A stretch of 64,000 nucleotides of DNA from Planotetraspora sp. A-T 1434 (GTDB lineage: Bacteria > Actinomycetota > Actinomycetes > Streptosporangiales > Streptosporangiaceae): contig NZ_JAOEGB010000004.1 in the NCBI RefSeq assembly GCF_025420585.1, forward strand, positions 124,001 through 188,000, in the 5' to 3' direction. Positions 1 through 37,686 of this stretch are shown here, piece by piece. The position numbers were made by a program, and so were the translations under genes. The notes beneath the pieces are model-generated. The model ran no database searches and was not told the origin of the DNA. It saw nothing but the letters and a program-made list of their open reading frames with translations. Numbering within the stretch: position 1 is the first letter of the stretch; each line of letters opens with the position of its first letter.

Positions 1-359
1 CCGTCCCGTCGACCACCCCCTCGCCTCCGGCCGGGCAGCAGCCGACCACCGGCACCGGCATCACCGAGCCGGGCCAGACCCAGTCTGTACAGCCCCAGCC
101 GGGTGTGACCCAGCAAGGCACGGGCCAGCCGGGCACAGGTCAGCCGGGCGCCCTTGGGGCCGGTACGGCACAGCCGACGCCGGGCCAGGCCATCAGGCCG
201 GTCGGGCAGCACACAGCGGGCACGATGCGGTTCGCCACCTGCAAGGAGGCCACCGAACACGGCCAGGGGCCGTTCTTCAAGGGTCGGCACCAGGAGTATT
301 ACTGGTACACCGACGTCGATCACGACGGCGTCGCCTGCGACCCCGACGACCTCGTCTGA
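1..359 (+). CDS. Excalibur calcium-binding domain protein, C-terminal part (5' end outside window)
   Basis: The frame is open from base 3 to the TGA at 357-359, so the gene begins upstream of the window. The visible product has a low-complexity Pro/Gly/Gln/Thr-rich linker followed by an Excalibur domain of about 40 residues. That domain has the two conserved cysteines (FATCKEA and GVACDPDD) and the calcium-binding loop DVDHDGVAC. Excalibur domains occur at the C-termini of secreted or surface proteins of Gram-positive bacteria. A cell-surface role is therefore likely, but the N-terminal domain that would define the function is not visible. A GC-rich hairpin follows the stop codon directly. 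The gene converges on the molybdopterin enzyme gene, with a 53-bp repeat array between them. Confidence 0.75.
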   Translation, partial: VPSTTPSPPAGQQPTTGTGITEPGQTQSVQPQPGVTQQGTGQPGTGQPGALGAGTAQPTPGQAIRPVGQHTAGTMRFATCKEATEHGQGPFFKGRHQEYYWYTDVDHDGVACDPDDLV

Positions 360-388: not shown

Positions 389-506
389 TGCATGATCACG
401 TACGGGCTTCTCCCACGTCAGCCCGCGTCGCCGGGAATTTCTGCATGATCACGACTCGCGTTTGCGCAGGTCGCCTCCGCTTGCCGGGAACCTGTGCATG
501 ATCACG
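389..506 (+). repeat. 53-bp-period repeat, array A (3 copies)
   Basis: The 12-mer TGCATGATCACG occurs at 389-400, 442-453 and 495-506, exactly 53 bp apart. In copies 2 and 3 it is preceded by CCGGGAA plus four variable bases, which makes a 23-bp conserved block. The 30-bp segments between blocks differ but share a weak CACGTC or CAGGTC centre. The array sits between two convergent genes and ends 7 bp from the stop of the molybdopterin enzyme gene. Four more arrays of the same family lie at about 14.5, 15.8, 17.6 and 35.5 kb. Confidence 0.85.
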
Positions 507-513
507 CGGGGGG

Positions 514-2805
514 TCAGGAGGGGGCGGCGAGGGCGATGTCCTCGGGCCGGATGGGGACGCGGGGCAGCTCCAGGCCCGTCGCGGCCCGTACGGCGGCCGC
601 CACCGCGGGCGTGGAGGACAGCGTCGGAGGCTCACCCGCGCCGCGCAGGCCGTACGGCGCGTGAGGGTCGGGGTTCTCCAGGATCGACAGCCGCATCGGG
701 GGCATGTCGAGGATCGTGGGGATCAGGTAGTCGGTGAACGACGGGTTGAGCACCCTGCCGTCGCGGACCTGGATCTCCTCCATGAGCGCCAGGCCGAGGC
801 CCTGCGCCGTGCCGCCGTGGATCTGCCCCTCCAGGGCCACGGGGTTGAGGATCCTGCCGACGTCCTGCACGGCGGCCAGCTCGACGACCTTGACCAGGCC
901 GAGCTCGACGTCCACGTCGACGACGGCCCGGTGGACGCACAGCGCGAGCTGGGTGTGCGAGTCGCCCTGACCGGTCACCGGGTCCATGGGGAACGTCGGC
1001 CGGTGGCGGTACTCTCGCGTCTCCTCCACGGGGCCGAACCGCTCCAGCAGCTCCACCAGGCCCAGCTCCGGGTCGCCCGCGCGGAGGCTGTCGAGACGCT
1101 CCCGTACGGCTTCGCAGGCCGCCTTGACCGCGCCGCCTGTGACGTAGGACTGGCGGGACGCCGACGAGGAGCCGGCGGAGCCGACCGAGGTGTCCGCCGG
1201 GGCGACCGTCACCTTGTCGATGCCGAGCTCGGTGCGGGCGATCTGGGCCTTGACCGTGATCAGCCCCTGCCCCACTTCGGCGGCGGCCGTGTGCACGAGC
1301 ACGTGCGGCTCGCCGCCGAGGAGCTCGACGCGCACCCGTGCGGTGGAGTAGTCGTCGAAGCCCTCGGAGAAGCAGATGTTCTTGATGCCCACGCCGTATC
1401 CGACGCCGCGCCGCACGCCCTCGCCGTGGGTGGTCTGCGAGACACCGCCGGGAAGCGACCGCAGGTCCGGAACGGGCTCGGCGCTGGAGGGCTTGGCGCT
1501 GGAGGGCTCGGTGATGGAGCGCCTGGTGACTGTGGAGCCGGGCAGCGGCATGGCGGCCAGCTCGCGGAGCATGCCGGCGAGCGGCGCGGGGGAGTCGACG
1601 ACCTGCCCGGTCGCCAGCCGGGAGCCCTGGGAGACGGCGTTGCGGATCCTGATCTCGACCGGGGACAGCCCGCACGCCTCGGCCAGCCTGTCCATCTGCG
1701 ACTCGTAGGCGTAGCACGCCTGGACGGCCCCGAAGCCGCGCATCGCCCCGCAGGGCGGGTTGTTCGTGTAGACGCCGTAAGCGTCGATCCGGACGTTGTC
1801 CACCTCGTACGGCCCGACGCCCAGCGATGCGGCGTTGCCGACCACGGCGCGAGACGTCGAACAGTAAGCGCCGCCGTCGAGGAGGATCTCGGCCCTGACG
1901 TAGACCAGGCGCCCGTCGGCCGTGGCGCCGTGCTCGTAGCGCATCCAGGCCGGGTGGCGGTGGACGTGCCCGAAGAACGACTCTTCCCGGCCGTACACGA
2001 TCTTGACCGGCCTGCCGGTCCGGAGGGCCAGCATCGAGGCGTGGATCTGCATCGACAGGTCCTCGCGGGCGCCGAACGCGCCGCCCACCCCGGCGAGCGA
2101 CAGCCGCACCTTCTCCTTGGGCAGACCCAGGCAGGGCGCGACCTGGTCCTGGTCGACGTGCAGCCACTGCGTGGCGATGAACAGGTCCACGCCACCGTCC
2201 TCGGCGGGCACGGCCAGGCCGGACTCCGGGCCGAGGAAGGCCTGGTCCTGCATCCCGACCTCGTACTCGCCCGTGACGACCACCTCGGCCTGAAAGCGAT
2301 CACCCACTCGGACCGGCTGGTGCCGTACGAGGTTGCCGTGGGGATGGACCGGCGGGCAGGACGGGTCGAAGGCGGCCCTGCGGGGATCGACGACCGCCTC
2401 GCGCGGCTCGTAGGCCACGATGATGGCGGCCGCCGCGCGGCGGGCCGTCTCCGGATGGTCGGCGGCGACCAGCGCCACCGGCTCGCCCTGGTATCGCACC
2501 TGGTCCACGGCCAGCACCGGCTGGTCCCGGTGCTCCAGGCCGTAGAACTTCTCGCCCGGCACGTCCTCATGGGTCAGCACCGCGAACACGCCCGGCATGG
2601 CCAGCGCGGGCCCGATGTCGATCGAGCGGATCCACGCGGACGGGTGCGGGCTGCGCAGCGTCGCCCCCCACAGCATGCCGTCCAGCCAGAGATCCGAGGA
2701 GTACGCGAACTCGCCCGTCACCTTGAGTGTGCCGTCCGGGCGGGGCACGCTCGCGCCGACGCCGGAGCGCGACCCGGAGCGCGGCTCGGTCTGGATGCTG
2801 GTCAC
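514..2805 (-). CDS. xanthine dehydrogenase/aldehyde oxidase family molybdopterin-binding subunit
   Basis: This 763-residue protein is the catalytic molybdenum subunit of a xanthine-dehydrogenase-type hydroxylase. An aldehyde oxidase/xanthine dehydrogenase a/b hammerhead domain spans about residues 20-135. Two molybdopterin-binding domains follow, at about 145-390 and 430-740. Visible cofactor motifs are GGAFGARED, GAMRGFGAVQA, AEVGQG and, near the end, GLRGAGEPPTLSS, whose Glu (about residue 725) is the family's catalytic base. The start is GTG. The divergent neighbour is a PucR regulator, which points to purine breakdown, though the substrate cannot be read from sequence. The [2Fe-2S] and FAD subunits normally encoded beside this one are absent on both sides, because the gene ends at a repeat array and a convergent gene. 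They must be encoded elsewhere or be missing. Confidence 0.88.
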   Translation of the reverse strand: MTSIQTEPRSGSRSGVGASVPRPDGTLKVTGEFAYSSDLWLDGMLWGATLRSPHPSAWIRSIDIGPALAMPGVFAVLTHEDVPGEKFYGLEHRDQPVLAVDQVRYQGEPVALVAADHPETARRAAAAIIVAYEPREAVVDPRRAAFDPSCPPVHPHGNLVRHQPVRVGDRFQAEVVVTGEYEVGMQDQAFLGPESGLAVPAEDGGVDLFIATQWLHVDQDQVAPCLGLPKEKVRLSLAGVGGAFGAREDLSMQIHASMLALRTGRPVKIVYGREESFFGHVHRHPAWMRYEHGATADGRLVYVRAEILLDGGAYCSTSRAVVGNAASLGVGPYEVDNVRIDAYGVYTNNPPCGAMRGFGAVQACYAYESQMDRLAEACGLSPVEIRIRNAVSQGSRLATGQVVDSPAPLAGMLRELAAMPLPGSTVTRRSITEPSSAKPSSAEPVPDLRSLPGGVSQTTHGEGVRRGVGYGVGIKNICFSEGFDDYSTARVRVELLGGEPHVLVHTAAAEVGQGLITVKAQIARTELGIDKVTVAPADTSVGSAGSSSASRQSYVTGGAVKAACEAVRERLDSLRAGDPELGLVELLERFGPVEETREYRHRPTFPMDPVTGQGDSHTQLALCVHRAVVDVDVELGLVKVVELAAVQDVGRILNPVALEGQIHGGTAQGLGLALMEEIQVRDGRVLNPSFTDYLIPTILDMPPMRLSILENPDPHAPYGLRGAGEPPTLSSTPAVAAAVRAATGLELPRVPIRPEDIALAAPS

Positions 2806-13901: not shown

Positions 13902-13932
13902 AGACCCAGGCCCATCTCGTCCACGGTGATTA

Positions 13933-13958
13933 CCACGCCACCCCCGGGGGTAGCGTGG
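13933..13958. terminator. strong hairpin after copD-ctaG (alternative: CsoR-like operator)
   Basis: The arms CCACGCCACCCCC and GGGGGTAGCGTGG pair over 13 positions with one mismatch, 32 bases after the stop. As a terminator it closes the copper operon. Its core ACCCCCGGGGGTA also resembles copper-responsive CsoR/RicR operators, which would make it a control site for the next gene. Confidence 0.5.
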
Positions 13959-14040
13959 CGAGTCCGAGAACGGGAATCACTCAATGGAGACGCGGCATCC
14001 CAAGCGGGCGGGCCCGTGCGGCGGGTCAGGAGGGTGGGGA

Positions 14041-14454
14041 TTGTCCGAGGAAGTTCGCCTTCGCAAAGGCGAGGGCCTCACCCAGGCACTGGAGGACTAC
14101 CTCGCTGACTGGACCGAGAGGTCCGGCATCGTGGTGGAGACCTGGGCGCTGCCCGCCGAAACCGTGCCCAGGCGCCTCGCCCAGGCCGTGTTCGCGACGG
14201 TCGCCGAGGCGCTGACCAACGTCGAACGGCACAGCGGCGCCACGCACGTCTCCATCGCGGTGACGCTCGGCCGGAGCGGCCTGCGGCTCACGGTGAGCGA
14301 CGACGGCGCGGGGTTCGAGCTGGACAGGCCCAGCAGGATCGCCGGCAAGGGGCTGGCCGCCATGCGCGCCCATTTCGCCGAGGTGGGCGGCACGCTCAGG
14401 ATCAACAGCGTCCCCGGGGGCGGCACCACGATCACCGGCGTCATCCCGGCCTGA
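14041..14454 (+). CDS. orphan histidine-kinase-like ATP-binding (HATPase_c) protein
   Basis: This 137-residue protein consists almost only of a NarL-type HATPase_c domain, with N box EALTNVERHSG, G1 box DDGAGFE, G2 box GKGLAAMRAHFAEVGG and end GGGTTITGVIPA. No dimerisation/phosphoacceptor helix, sensor domain or response regulator gene is present. The TTG start at 14041 is chosen because AGGAGG (14028-14033) lies 7 bases upstream; an in-frame ATG at 13984 has no such site and adds a non-conserved Gly/Arg-rich stretch. It is either a trimmed sensor kinase or a stand-alone ATPase. Three units of the 53-bp repeat follow before convergent map. Confidence 0.65.
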   Translation: MSEEVRLRKGEGLTQALEDYLADWTERSGIVVETWALPAETVPRRLAQAVFATVAEALTNVERHSGATHVSIAVTLGRSGLRLTVSDDGAGFELDRPSRIAGKGLAAMRAHFAEVGGTLRINSVPGGGTTITGVIPA

Positions 14455-14505: not shown

Positions 14506-14623
14506 TGCGTGATCGGCAACCGCTGGATGGCAGGTCCAGCCGTATGGCCGGGAACTCGTGCATGATCACGAACTGGCGAGTGGCAGGTCGAGGCGCTCGG
14601 CCGGGACTCCGTGCATGATCACG
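14506..14623 (+). repeat. 53-bp-period repeat, array B (3 copies, first degenerate)
   Basis: Core copies lie at 14506-14517 (degenerate, TGCGTGATCGGC), 14559-14570 and 14612-14623, each exactly 53 bp apart. Each follows a CCGGGA block. Orientation is as in array A. The array fills the junction between the convergent HATPase gene and map, ending 15 bases from the map stop. Confidence 0.85.
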
Positions 14624-14637
14624 GCGGGGGGTGAGGG

Positions 14638-15486
14638 TCAGGGGAGTGTGAGGATCTCGTGACCCGAGTCGGTCACCAGCACCGTGTGCTCGAACTGGGC
14701 GGTCCGCTTGCGGTCCTTGGTCACCGCGGTCCAGTGGTCCGGCCAGATCTCGTATTCGATCGTCCCGAGCGTGAGCATCGGCTCAATCGTGAACGTCATG
14801 CCCGGCACCAGGGTGACCGAAAGCGACGGGTCGTCGTAATGCGGGACGATCAGGCCGGAATGGAACGACGCCCCGATGCCGTGGCCGGTGAAGTCACGGA
14901 CCACGCCGTAGCCGAAACGCTTGGCGTACGCTTCGATCACCCGGCCGACGATGTTGAGCTGCCGTCCGGGGGCGACCGCCTTGATGGCCCGCATAGTGGC
15001 CTCGTGGGTCCGCTCGACCAGCAGGCGGGACTCCTCGTCGACGTCTCCCACGAGGTAGGTCGCGTCCGTGTCCCCGTGCACGCCGCCGATGTAGGCGGTG
15101 ATGTCCACGTTGACGATGTCGCCGTCGTTCAGAACCGTGTCGTCGGGGATGCCGTGGCAGATCACCTCGTTGATCGAGGTGCACAGCGACTTCGGATAGC
15201 CGCGGTAGCCGAGCGTGGACGGGTAGGCGCCGTGGTCGCAGAGGAACTCGTGGCCTATCCGGTCGAGCTCGTCGGTGGTCACGCCGGGGGCGACGTGCCT
15301 GCCGACCTCCTCGAGGGCCTGGGCGGCGATCCGGCCCGCGATCCGCATCTTCTCGATGGTCTCCGGGGTCTGGACGTCGCTGCCGCCCTTCTTCGGTTCG
15401 GCCTTCCCCACATACTCCGGGCGCTCGATGTTGGCGGGGACCTTGCGGGTGGGCGAGATTCGCCCGGGCCGGAGCAGCGTCGTCAT
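14638..15486 (-). CDS. map: methionine aminopeptidase, type I with N-terminal extension
   Basis: Methionine aminopeptidase removes the initiator Met from nascent proteins in the cytosol. The 282-residue protein has all expected ligands: His111 for substrate contact and the metal ligands Asp128, Asp139, His202, Glu235 and Glu266 (motifs NVDIT, GDTDA, TGHGIG, TIEP, QFEHT). The first 40 or so residues form the Pro/Arg-rich extension ([12 protein letters not shown]) typical of the longer actinobacterial MapB isozyme, thought to dock on the ribosome. The ATG start at 15486 keeps that extension. The isozyme assignment is by length and extension only. Confidence 0.92.
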
Positions 15487-15771: not shown

Positions 15772-15899
15772 CGTGATCATGCACAGGTTCCCGGCGACAC
15801 GGGACGACGTGGGCGACCACAAGACGTGATCATGCACAGGTTCCGGAAACCGAGGACGACCTGCGCGAACGCCAGACGTGATCATGCGCCTGTTGCGGT
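15772..15899 (-). repeat. 53-bp-period repeat, array C (3 copies)
   Basis: CGTGATCATGCA, the reverse complement of the array A core, starts at 15772, 15825 and 15877 (spacings 53 and 52). The 52 comes from one base lost in the CCGG block of copy 2. Copies 1 and 2 continue as CAGGTTCC; copy 3 has decayed to CGCCTGTTGCGG. The array lies between the 59-residue gene and the convergent CBU_0592-like gene. Confidence 0.85.
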
Positions 15900-17466: not shown

Positions 17467-17777
17467 TCGTCTCCTCCGCGCACCTGCCATGTGATCATGC
17501 ACATGTTCCCGTACGCGCCGTCCCACCTGGCGCTTTGGGTATCGTGATCATGCATGACGAGGATGCGCCTGACGGACAGACACGCTGCATGATCACAACG
17601 AGTGTCGGCGCTGATCAGACGGCGTGCGGCGGAATCACTGCGTGATCACGACGCGGGAAGCTTCACGTCCCCGGGCTTCCCGGGAAACCCCGCATGATCA
17701 CGACGCGGGAGGCTCCACGTCGCCTGGCTTCCCGGGAAACCCTGCATGATCACGGCGATGGTTGGATGGCCGGCGCT
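17467..17777. other. gene-free convergent junction filled by repeat array D
   Basis: The 311 bases between the LysR gene and the convergent 17778-18356 gene contain no plausible CDS. Almost all of the segment is made of six copies of the 53-bp repeat in two orientations, listed separately. Confidence 0.7.
17490..17754. repeat. 53-bp-period repeat, array D (6 copies, inverted arrangement)
   Basis: Two reverse-orientation cores (17490-17501 and 17543-17554, 53 bp apart) are followed by four forward cores at 17586, 17639, 17691 and 17743 (spacings 53, 52, 52). The switch of orientation occurs between 17554 and 17586. Copies 5 and 6 carry near-identical preceding segments (TTCCCGGGAAACC), pointing to recent local duplication. 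The array separates two convergent genes. Confidence 0.85.
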
Positions 17778-35499: not shown

Positions 35500-35606
35500 T
35501 GTGATCATGTTCTGTGTGTGTCCGGCGGCGCGCCATCGTCATGCATGATCACGCGGAACAGAGCGCCAGGCAGGGCGGTATGTGCGGGAACATGCGCATG
35601 ATCACG
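35500..35606. repeat. 53-bp-period repeat, array E (3 copies, inverted arrangement)
   Basis: One reverse core (35500-35511, TGTGATCATGTT) faces two forward cores at 35542-35553 and 35595-35606, 53 bp apart. The distance from reverse to forward TGATCA is 44 bases, against 45 in array D, so the inverted junction is also conserved. This array lies between two co-directional genes (kinase stop and fusion-regulator start), unlike the other four. Confidence 0.8.
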
Positions 35607-35628: not shown

Positions 35629-37686
35629 TCAGGCGGGGAGGGGGAAGCGGGCCTCGACGACCGTGCCGCCTGTGTCCGGGGAGGTGACCACGCAGCTCCC
35701 GCCCAGCTCGGCGGCCCGCTCGCGCATGGATGACATGCCGACCCCCGCCCGCATGCGCGCGGGGATGCCGATCCCGTCGTCCGTGACGCGGACGCGCAGC
35801 TCGCCGCCCGATCCGTCCGGTACGGCGGGGCCGCCCCTTTCCAGCACCACGTCGACCCGGGTGGCGCGGGCATGCCGTCTGACGTTGTTGAGCGCCTCCT
35901 GGACGATGCGGTAGACGGCGACCTCGACGGCGGCCGGAAGCCCCTCCAGATCGCCCTCGACCCGCACCCGCGTGGTCGCCTCGCCCTCCGGCGCCGACAC
36001 AGCCGGGGAGGCTGAGGGCGCCGGCGGGGCCGGGGGCACGGTCTCCTCCGCGAGGGCCTGTACGGCTCCCGCCAGCCCGAGGTCGTCCAGCGCCGGGGGC
36101 CGCAGGCCGTACACGAGCTCGCGGATGTCGCCCGCGACGGCGTCCATGCCGACGCGCAGGTCCTGCAGGAGGCCGTCGGCGGCGGCGGGGGAGCGGGTCA
36201 GGCTCATCCTGGCCATGTTGATCGTCATGGCCATGGCCCCGAGGGTCTGGCCGAGCCCGTCGTGCAGATCGCGGCGGAGGCGGCGGCGCTCCTCCTCCCG
36301 CGCGGCGAGGATGCGCTCCCTAGACCGCTGGAGGTCGGCGGCCATCCGCACGGCGTGGGCCACGTCGGCCACGTAAGGGAGCAGCGTGGCGATGACCCGC
36401 TCGTCGTGGGCCGCCGCGAACCGCCTGGCCCCCGGCTTGCCGATCAGCAGCCGCCCGACCGGCTCCCCGTGCCAGATCAGCGAGATCTCCCGGGGCGTCG
36501 TGCCGACCGTGCCGCTCTCGACGTATCGGGGCCGCCCGTCGGTGATCTCGACCGCGACGCCGTCGACCGCCAGGCCGTCCCGGACGACCGTGACGACCGA
36601 GGCCAGCGCGTCGGCCGGGTCGGCCCGGCGCACCTCCTGGGTGAGCCGCTCCGCGAGCAGGGCGGGGTCGCCCACGCTGCCGTACAGCGTCCGGTCCACC
36701 ACGCGCTGGAGGGCGCGCCGGAGCGGCTGGAAGAACGCCCCGGCGAATAGGGCCGCGGCCAGCCCGGCGACCTGGTGATATCCGGAGACGACGAGGCTCG
36801 ACACCGCGCCCACGCCGAAATAGACCCCGCTGATCACGGCGAGCAGCCCGGCGGCCACGAAGGCCCTGCTGATCACCGTGTCGATGCCGTAGAGCCGGTA
36901 GCGCAGCGCCGAGAAGAGGATGGCGAAGGGGATGACCGCCGTCCACACCGACGCGATCATCCACATCGACTCGCCGAGCACGTAGAACACGACGTAGCCG
37001 GTGAAGGCGCTGAGCGGCCACGCGATCTGCCGCCGGGTGGCGGGGTCGGCGTGGCGCAGGCGCAGGACGAGCGAGGCGAGCGCCGCGACCACACAAGCCA
37101 TGATCACGTACTGCATGGCGTTCCAGGCCGGCAGGTAGTACGGCGCGAGCGCCCTGATCTCCAGCGGGTTGTGGATCACCGTCGGCCACGGGTACGTCGC
37201 GGGGTCGGGGTCGGGACGGACCAGGGAGAGCCCGGCCTCGGCGACCGTCGTGACGGCCCCCACCACGACCACCGGCCGCCAGCGGGGCGAGGGGAGCCGC
37301 CCAGTGGGCGAGTAGAGCGGCAGCAGGATCGCCAGCAGCAAGCCCGCGACCGCCCAGCACAGGATGTTGAGCCAGCGCGCGGAGGCCGCCGTGACCATGT
37401 CGCCGTGGGACGCCGAGGAGAACGACACCGCGGTGAACAGGACGTTCCCCGACGCGAGCAACCCGCCGGCGCACATGAGCCACGCCATGCTGAGCCGGGG
37501 CCGCTGGGAGACCAGGAACGCGCCCACGGCGGGGAAGGTGATCGCCGCGCCGAGGTCGGGGGTCAGAGGGTTGCCGGGCTGCCACTCGGCCGGGGTCCGG
37601 AGCTGGATCAGCACTCCGACCGGCGTCAGGACCAGTGCGATCGCCGCCATCACCCAGGCGGCCGTCCGCCCCTGTGTGTCTTTCAT
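35629..37686 (-). CDS. NarL-type sensor histidine kinase (copy 1)
   Basis: This 685-residue membrane kinase has an N-terminal region of about eight hydrophobic segments (to about 290) and a GAF-like cytosolic region (about 310-430). The HisKA_3 phosphoacceptor helix is EEERRRLRRDLHDGLGQTLG. The HATPase_c domain has N box VQEALNNVRRHARA, G1 VTDDGIGIP and G2 GVGMSSMRERAAELGG. It is upstream of, and on the same strand as, the SARP-REC fusion regulator, 122 bases before array E ends, so it is the best candidate for phosphorylating it. A second kinase with the same layout lies at 39988-42153. A -10-like CATAAT lies about 11 bases before the ATG, with no clear ribosome-binding site. Confidence 0.88.
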   Translation of the reverse strand: MKDTQGRTAAWVMAAIALVLTPVGVLIQLRTPAEWQPGNPLTPDLGAAITFPAVGAFLVSQRPRLSMAWLMCAGGLLASGNVLFTAVSFSSASHGDMVTAASARWLNILCWAVAGLLLAILLPLYSPTGRLPSPRWRPVVVVGAVTTVAEAGLSLVRPDPDPATYPWPTVIHNPLEIRALAPYYLPAWNAMQYVIMACVVAALASLVLRLRHADPATRRQIAWPLSAFTGYVVFYVLGESMWMIASVWTAVIPFAILFSALRYRLYGIDTVISRAFVAAGLLAVISGVYFGVGAVSSLVVSGYHQVAGLAAALFAGAFFQPLRRALQRVVDRTLYGSVGDPALLAERLTQEVRRADPADALASVVTVVRDGLAVDGVAVEITDGRPRYVESGTVGTTPREISLIWHGEPVGRLLIGKPGARRFAAAHDERVIATLLPYVADVAHAVRMAADLQRSRERILAAREEERRRLRRDLHDGLGQTLGAMAMTINMARMSLTRSPAAADGLLQDLRVGMDAVAGDIRELVYGLRPPALDDLGLAGAVQALAEETVPPAPPAPSASPAVSAPEGEATTRVRVEGDLEGLPAAVEVAVYRIVQEALNNVRRHARATRVDVVLERGGPAVPDGSGGELRVRVTDDGIGIPARMRAGVGMSSMRERAAELGGSCVVTSPDTGGTVVEARFPLPA

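Follow-up and report, generated by a model that had tools for sequence, protein, structure and literature searches.

Arrays of a strictly spaced 53-bp unit at gene ends in Streptosporangiaceae: candidate sites for a putative DNA-binding protein

The window, meaning the whole 64-kb stretch of DNA that was analysed, contains five arrays of the core TGCATGATCACG, all of which are intergenic, as a sequence-only reading of this DNA had stated (Table 1). Four of them lie in convergent gaps and the fifth in a tandem gap. Among the 18 cores listed in that reading, 10 match TGCATGATCACG exactly, 6 have one mismatch and the other 2 (14506 and 35500) are degenerate, falling beyond the two-mismatch limit of our scan yet near the expected register. 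Allowing up to two mismatches, the window holds 25 matches to the core against 4.6 expected, a number reached by no shuffle. The 52-53 bp that had been claimed between neighbouring cores holds for same-strand cores in all five arrays but not for the inverted junctions, which measure 43 bp from 17543(-) to 17586(+) and 42 bp from 35500(-) to 35542(+) and are array centres, not units. The HATPase-domain gene beside array 2, together with flanking DNA (13902-14454), separates the M24 peptidase gene from a conserved gene; it does not occur at this place in P. phitsanulokensis, in which only about 20 bp lie between the M24 peptidase gene and the conserved gene. The junction of array 3 also has an array in P. 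thailandica (locus L091) and none in P. phitsanulokensis.

Table 1. Arrays and associated features, in window positions
Feature	Positions	Strand	Remarks
Array 1	389..506	+	Three cores, 389-400, 442-453 and 495-506; two full 53-bp units
Array 1, setting			Convergent genes 225-359 (+) and 514-2805 (-); 7 bp from end of outermost core to stop codon of the - gene
Array 1, G-rich outer border	507..526	+	Strand-asymmetric; border type general outside terminal cores
Array 2	14506..14623	+	Degenerate core 14506; cores 14559-14570 and 14612-14623
Array 2, flanks			HATPase-domain gene 14041-14454 (+); M24 metallopeptidase/methionine aminopeptidase-like gene 14638-15486 (-)
Array 3	15772..15888	-	Cores 15772-15783, 15825-15836 and 15877-15888; convergent gap
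Array 4, left arm	17490..17554	-	Cores 17490-17501 and 17543-17554
Array 4, centre	17555..17585	.	Flanked by inverted innermost cores
Array 4, right arm	17586..17754	+	Cores 17586-17597, 17639-17650, 17691-17702 and 17743-17754; final two units with 52-bp spacing
Composite element (whole array 4)	17491..17773	.	270-320 bp; further copies in contig C1
Array 5	35500..35606	+	Degenerate core 35500 (-), then 35542-35553 and 35595-35606 (+)
Array 5, setting			Tandem gap; 22 bp to stop codon of gene 35629-37686 (-)

Each unit consists of GCA(T/A)GATCACG followed 13 bp later by CAGGTCA, then a GA block and the next core, with a period of 53 bp. Analysis of 576 distinct Planotetraspora units indicated that information is concentrated in three blocks: the core GCATGATCACG, CAGGTCA starting 13 bp past the core, and CGAA (CGGGAA in the window genome) ending five bases ahead of the GCATGATCACG of the next core. 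The conserved block ahead of the core that had been described earlier is real (CGGGAA and four bases, followed by the core), as is the proposed CAGGTC or CACGTC centre. Units of 52 bp in the window genome keep the distance from the centre to the left core in 22/24 cases and that from the GGA block to the right core in 40/41, and thus the base is lost from the stretch that joins two half-modules, each of them rigid. With 10.5 bp per turn, 53 bp amounts to 5.05 turns, with the distances from core to CAGG and from CAGG to CGA each being about 20 bp, centre to centre, from which we infer that the units would be helically phased at about five turns. The unit core is imperfectly symmetric and occurs singly in each unit, and there is no conserved internal stem.

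The arrays also have a higher-order polarity. In a sample of 120 arrays the units point outward from the centre, with the order -+ in 51 and +- in 3; in many of them two inverted cores occupy the centre, and about half are unidirectional. The terminal cores are bordered on their outer side by G-rich sequence, with G at 0.53-0.54 and C at 0.18-0.20, which is alike at 3'- and 5'-facing edges. Gene ends without arrays lack this border, with G at 0.38 and C at 0.33. When the complete site was sought at the outermost cores, the CAGGTCA block was mostly missing, with the G-rich border there instead. Additionally, some array centres (contig C1 of the window genome, at about 114.8 kb and 166.1 kb) contain two inverted copies of a related motif, GTGCAAGGTCACG, which may represent a second type of core or an older one.

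The copies in the window are not the only ones, and the spacing is not random elsewhere in the genome. A scan of the entire window genome (7.78 Mb) detected 368 exact pairs of the form GCATGATCACG-N38-43-GCATGATCACG and 0 of the reversed pattern. These pairs are unevenly distributed, as contig C1 comprises 10% of the genome and holds roughly a quarter of them. A looser pair pattern occurs 439 times in the window genome, 146-630 times in five Planotetraspora genomes, 35 and 161 times in a further genus (g35), and 9-105 times in five species of Microbispora (the genus of Microbispora sp. H11081, G187), with counts of 0-4 in the other Microbispora tested. The exact 53-bp spacing is matched by 15/299 genomes of the order, with the reversed control at 0 in all, and the 53-bp core pair was found in 0/118 sampled genomes elsewhere in the phylum. 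The survey of related actinomycetes that the sequence-only reading had proposed places the module in Planotetraspora, where each genome has hundreds of pairs, in part of Microbispora and in a small number of sister genera. No description of these arrays was found in the open-access literature, in which the matches to the core letters appeared by title to concern subjects other than bacteria, and the novelty of the family is provisional.

Context statistics were obtained from 0.83 Mb of the window genome and 0.36-0.40 Mb from each of five others with the use of a home-made gene caller. By type of gap, the 120 arrays in these roughly 2.8 Mb from six species divide into 48 convergent (18 would be expected by length), 71 tandem (69.5 expected) and a single divergent one (32 expected), counts that are not fully independent because the four Planotetraspora regions are orthologous. 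Contig C1 of the window genome alone contributes 22 convergent, 39 tandem and 1 divergent array. Within tandem gaps the array edge lies a median of 17 bp from the upstream stop codon versus 75 bp from the downstream start (p ~1e-9), and the TGA of the outermost core is itself the stop codon of the gene in 20/123 facing 3' ends. Unidirectional arrays in tandem gaps face 3' ends in 23 cases and 5' ends in 17, which provides no link to the sense of transcription. This placement makes a role in termination attractive. In a first pass 3' ends with arrays seemed to be poor in intrinsic hairpins, but the difference lost its significance when whole gaps were compared with dinucleotide shuffles, which leaves termination as a candidate role.

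Comparison of orthologous arrays in four Planotetraspora species revealed that they occupy the same gaps and differ by whole 53-bp units, with some missing in P. phitsanulokensis. Between P. mira and P. silvatica, and between P. mira and P. kaengkrachanensis, the core without its variable first T is changed at 4/374 and 3/253 positions, respectively (about 1%, values obtained by subtraction from per-position counts). The units were located through consensus cores in P. mira, a procedure that biases the reference lineage and not the compared lineage. Four-fold degenerate sites in matching comparisons are changed at 6.75% and 19.5%, and the other spacer positions at 13% and 36%, the latter being an upper figure as some P. 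kaengkrachanensis comparisons may pair non-orthologous units. Among spacings of 50-56 bp, the range that the length test took in, changes of spacer length occur in 0/39, 0/39 and 0/10 orthologous unit pairs (88 units in total), while array-free gaps accumulate 0.19-0.22 indels per substitution. The conserved letters and the spacing of the arrays are, on these sequence comparisons, maintained by selection. In the same three species divergence at the variable spacer positions is roughly double that at four-fold sites despite the constant spacer length, possibly as a result of conversion between units or of imperfect orthology.

The positions of the arrays are also shared between genera, more often than expected by chance. 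Most of the 64 kb is collinear with Planotetraspora, and among 54 orthologous gaps between the window genome and Planotetraspora, arrays are present in both at 5, among them the gap of array 3, in the window genome only at 1, in Planotetraspora only at 2 and in neither at 46 (p 4e-5 for this distribution). The Planotetraspora loci were chosen for carrying arrays, a choice of which the contrast of 5/7 versus 1/47 is independent. An initial impression from one species that arrays are unshared between genera was overturned by this wider test. In the shared gaps the spacers can no longer be aligned by eye and flanking promoter sequence can, and there are orthologous junctions without arrays. The earlier judgement that this is a dispersed, strictly spaced family and not simple slippage is borne out by selection on the blocks and on unit length, by the shared positions and by the lack of a match in the literature or in Rfam. 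A convergent-junction array of P. silvatica (G022:C2:346754-346925) includes a long palindrome and seems to run in the opposite direction to its counterpart in P. kaengkrachanensis. Some neighbouring units are nearly identical (for example, C1:477559-477728). Comparison of copies further shows that whole arrays have also spread within the window genome, as composite copies. Specifically, array 4 has about a dozen further copies with 76-84% identity over at least 200 bp in 769 kb of contig C1; over 833 kb the composite element numbers about a dozen copies. This homology starts at the left outer core and extends beyond the right outer core of array 4, and the element ends near inversely oriented cores.

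Constraint on separated blocks, a helical length and a defined position together point to recognition of double-stranded DNA by a protein, and as the conserved letters and spacing are under selection the units are probably docking sites and not junk. The reading that we tentatively favour, at somewhat short of even chances, is that the arrays are phased sites for a putative DNA-binding protein that probably mark the ends of transcription units. Each unit would be a double-stranded recognition module, most likely for a putative sequence-specific DNA-binding protein, with one site comprising (C/G)GA(A/G), about five bases, GCA(T/A)GATCACG, 13 bases and CAGGTCA. Head-to-tail sites every 53 bp, or about five helical turns, would place bound subunits on one face of the helix where they are able to touch. 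Two runs of sites would point out from a centre, each closing in a G-rich border, with the array positioned directly behind stop codons. The resulting nucleoprotein array at transcription-unit ends could block read-through or set a topological boundary, in a manner similar to that proposed for the BIMEs of enterobacteria. What the analysis shows is the recurrence of the arrays, the constraint on their sequence and spacing, their placement and the positions common to genera, and from these we infer a reader protein and a function at boundaries. A gene for a reader protein was sought among array-adjacent genes, which yielded only ordinary orthologous neighbours. Additionally, any function of the arrays must be dispensable given their patchy presence within Microbispora.

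The main rival is that the arrays are a selfish REPIN- or MITE-like repeat that is spread by a trans-acting transposase, with insertions near promoters being removed and with no function for the host. We consider this unlikely overall, but it remains the main rival because the composite element has spread and because presence is patchy, and the spread of composite copies is better explained by a mobile element than by protein binding. The patchy copy number within Microbispora, the array-free orthologous junctions and the avoidance of divergent gaps, which is also typical of extragenic repeats, are all in keeping with a mobile repeat, as is the resemblance of inverted core pairs to REP doublets (PMC3116915). 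However, the RAYT-type Y1 transposase PF01797, the only partner transposon that was sought, is absent from the window genome, from 4/5 Planotetraspora and from the array-rich Microbispora H11081, and among these genomes (the window genome, five Planotetraspora and Microbispora H11081) its presence does not correlate with arrays. The RAYT model fails on this lack of a transposase. No target-site duplication was noticed by eye, and a selfish repeat would not be expected to have fixed-site units under purifying selection without length change at positions that are common to genera. Tandem duplication that is entirely neutral, in which recombination at the conserved core multiplies functionless units, would explain why species differ by whole 53-bp units and why neighbouring units are near-identical in places. 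We regard it as highly improbable, since drift would not keep three separated blocks and an exact length within diverged spacers, and since it does not account for the placement statistics or the shared junctions.

The sequence-only reading had left open whether the unit is a protein-binding or an RNA-structure module, and of these protein binding with roughly five-turn phasing, by a putative protein, fits best. An RNA element of 3' untranslated regions, serving as a transcription terminator or as an RNA-stability module, would suit the tight placement after stop codons and the use of the core TGA as a stop codon, and the hairpin depletion seen in the first pass suggests that arrays may replace hairpins. 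It is nevertheless improbable, as there is no covariation in 86 units, the one plausible stem has a covariation score no higher than that of shuffles, no clear excess of hairpins is seen, and no Rfam family matches in the window. Furthermore, the near-balanced orientation in tandem gaps shows no bias by transcript sense, the G-rich border does not change where an edge faces a 5' end, and RNA hairpins do not need a strict 53-bp spacing. The regular spacing of n cores with n-1 variable stretches, which the earlier reading had likened to that of a CRISPR array, would suit a CRISPR array or another spacer-acquiring immune locus. This likeness is superficial, as the variable stretches carry conserved blocks, are inherited vertically in the same order between species and are dispersed over hundreds of loci; an array compared with phage and plasmid collections had no match, and the array-flanking window genes that were examined have no Cas domain. 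We accordingly give an immune locus almost no credence.

The arrays can also be set against known repeat systems. For REP/BIME, REPIN, MITE and CRISPR alike, one or more defining features are absent from the arrays or the assignment lacks confirmation. Enterobacterial BIME/REP elements number in the hundreds, lie outside genes at 3' ends and in convergent gaps, avoid promoters, and form mosaics of inverted and tandem units for which binding of gyrase or IHF has been reported. The arrays are most closely like BIMEs in placement, being extragenic, at 3' ends and nearly absent from divergent gaps. In contrast, the BIME unit is a palindromic REP hairpin of 20-40 bp while the array unit is not palindromic and does not covary, and the arrays have a strict head-to-tail register, three blocks, units that point outward and borders rich in G. 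Array units showed no REP head tag. REP element biology is also treated in PMC3733652, and for REPINs with RAYT a few regularly spaced tandem REP arrays have also been described (PMC3116915). The arrays share with REPINs inverted core pairs and dispersed extragenic copies (PMC3116915). They differ in that tandem arrays are the rule here, that RAYT is lacking in the window genome and most Planotetraspora, and that positions are conserved across genera. The MIRU of Mycobacterium tuberculosis are actinobacterial intergenic tandem units that can overlap stop codons. They have a comparable unit size, whereas the arrays favour convergent gaps and show binding-site-like constraint, a distinction drawn by description and not by sequence. 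The DNA uptake sequences of Neisseria are likewise a short extragenic motif with inverted pairs behind genes and species dialects; compared by description, the arrays differ in being long, phased at 53 bp and composed of three blocks.

The three blocks also occur in lineage dialects, with CGAA-CCTG in most Planotetraspora, GGGAA in the window genome, CGAA-CTTC in P. thailandica (CTTCTG in 103/137 units) and GCGAC-AAACT with the core GCAAGATCACG in Microbispora. Such dialects are expected if the sites co-evolve with a reader protein. It is possible, though less likely than not, that the arrays constitute a new chromosomal nucleoprotein boundary system in Streptosporangiaceae, in which five-turn phased arrays at transcription-unit ends would be bound by a putative dedicated reader that co-evolves with the site dialects, including the within-genus dialect of P. 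thailandica. Most bacterial interspersed repeats have been treated as selfish or as hairpins, and in this array family selection on three separated blocks and on an exact helical spacing can be read at hundreds of gene ends from sequence alone. If a dedicated protein does bind, the family would be a bacterial case of phased boundaries that is open to experiment, and in which site-protein co-evolution is readable directly from species dialects, and they could bear on how neighbouring transcription units are separated in high-GC actinomycetes. As a separate observation, genera g49 and g51 (G048, G050, G089 and G090) contain the 12-bp core in another arrangement, as inverted pairs near GCGATCAA/TTGCATGATCACG, which is perhaps a related but distinct element.
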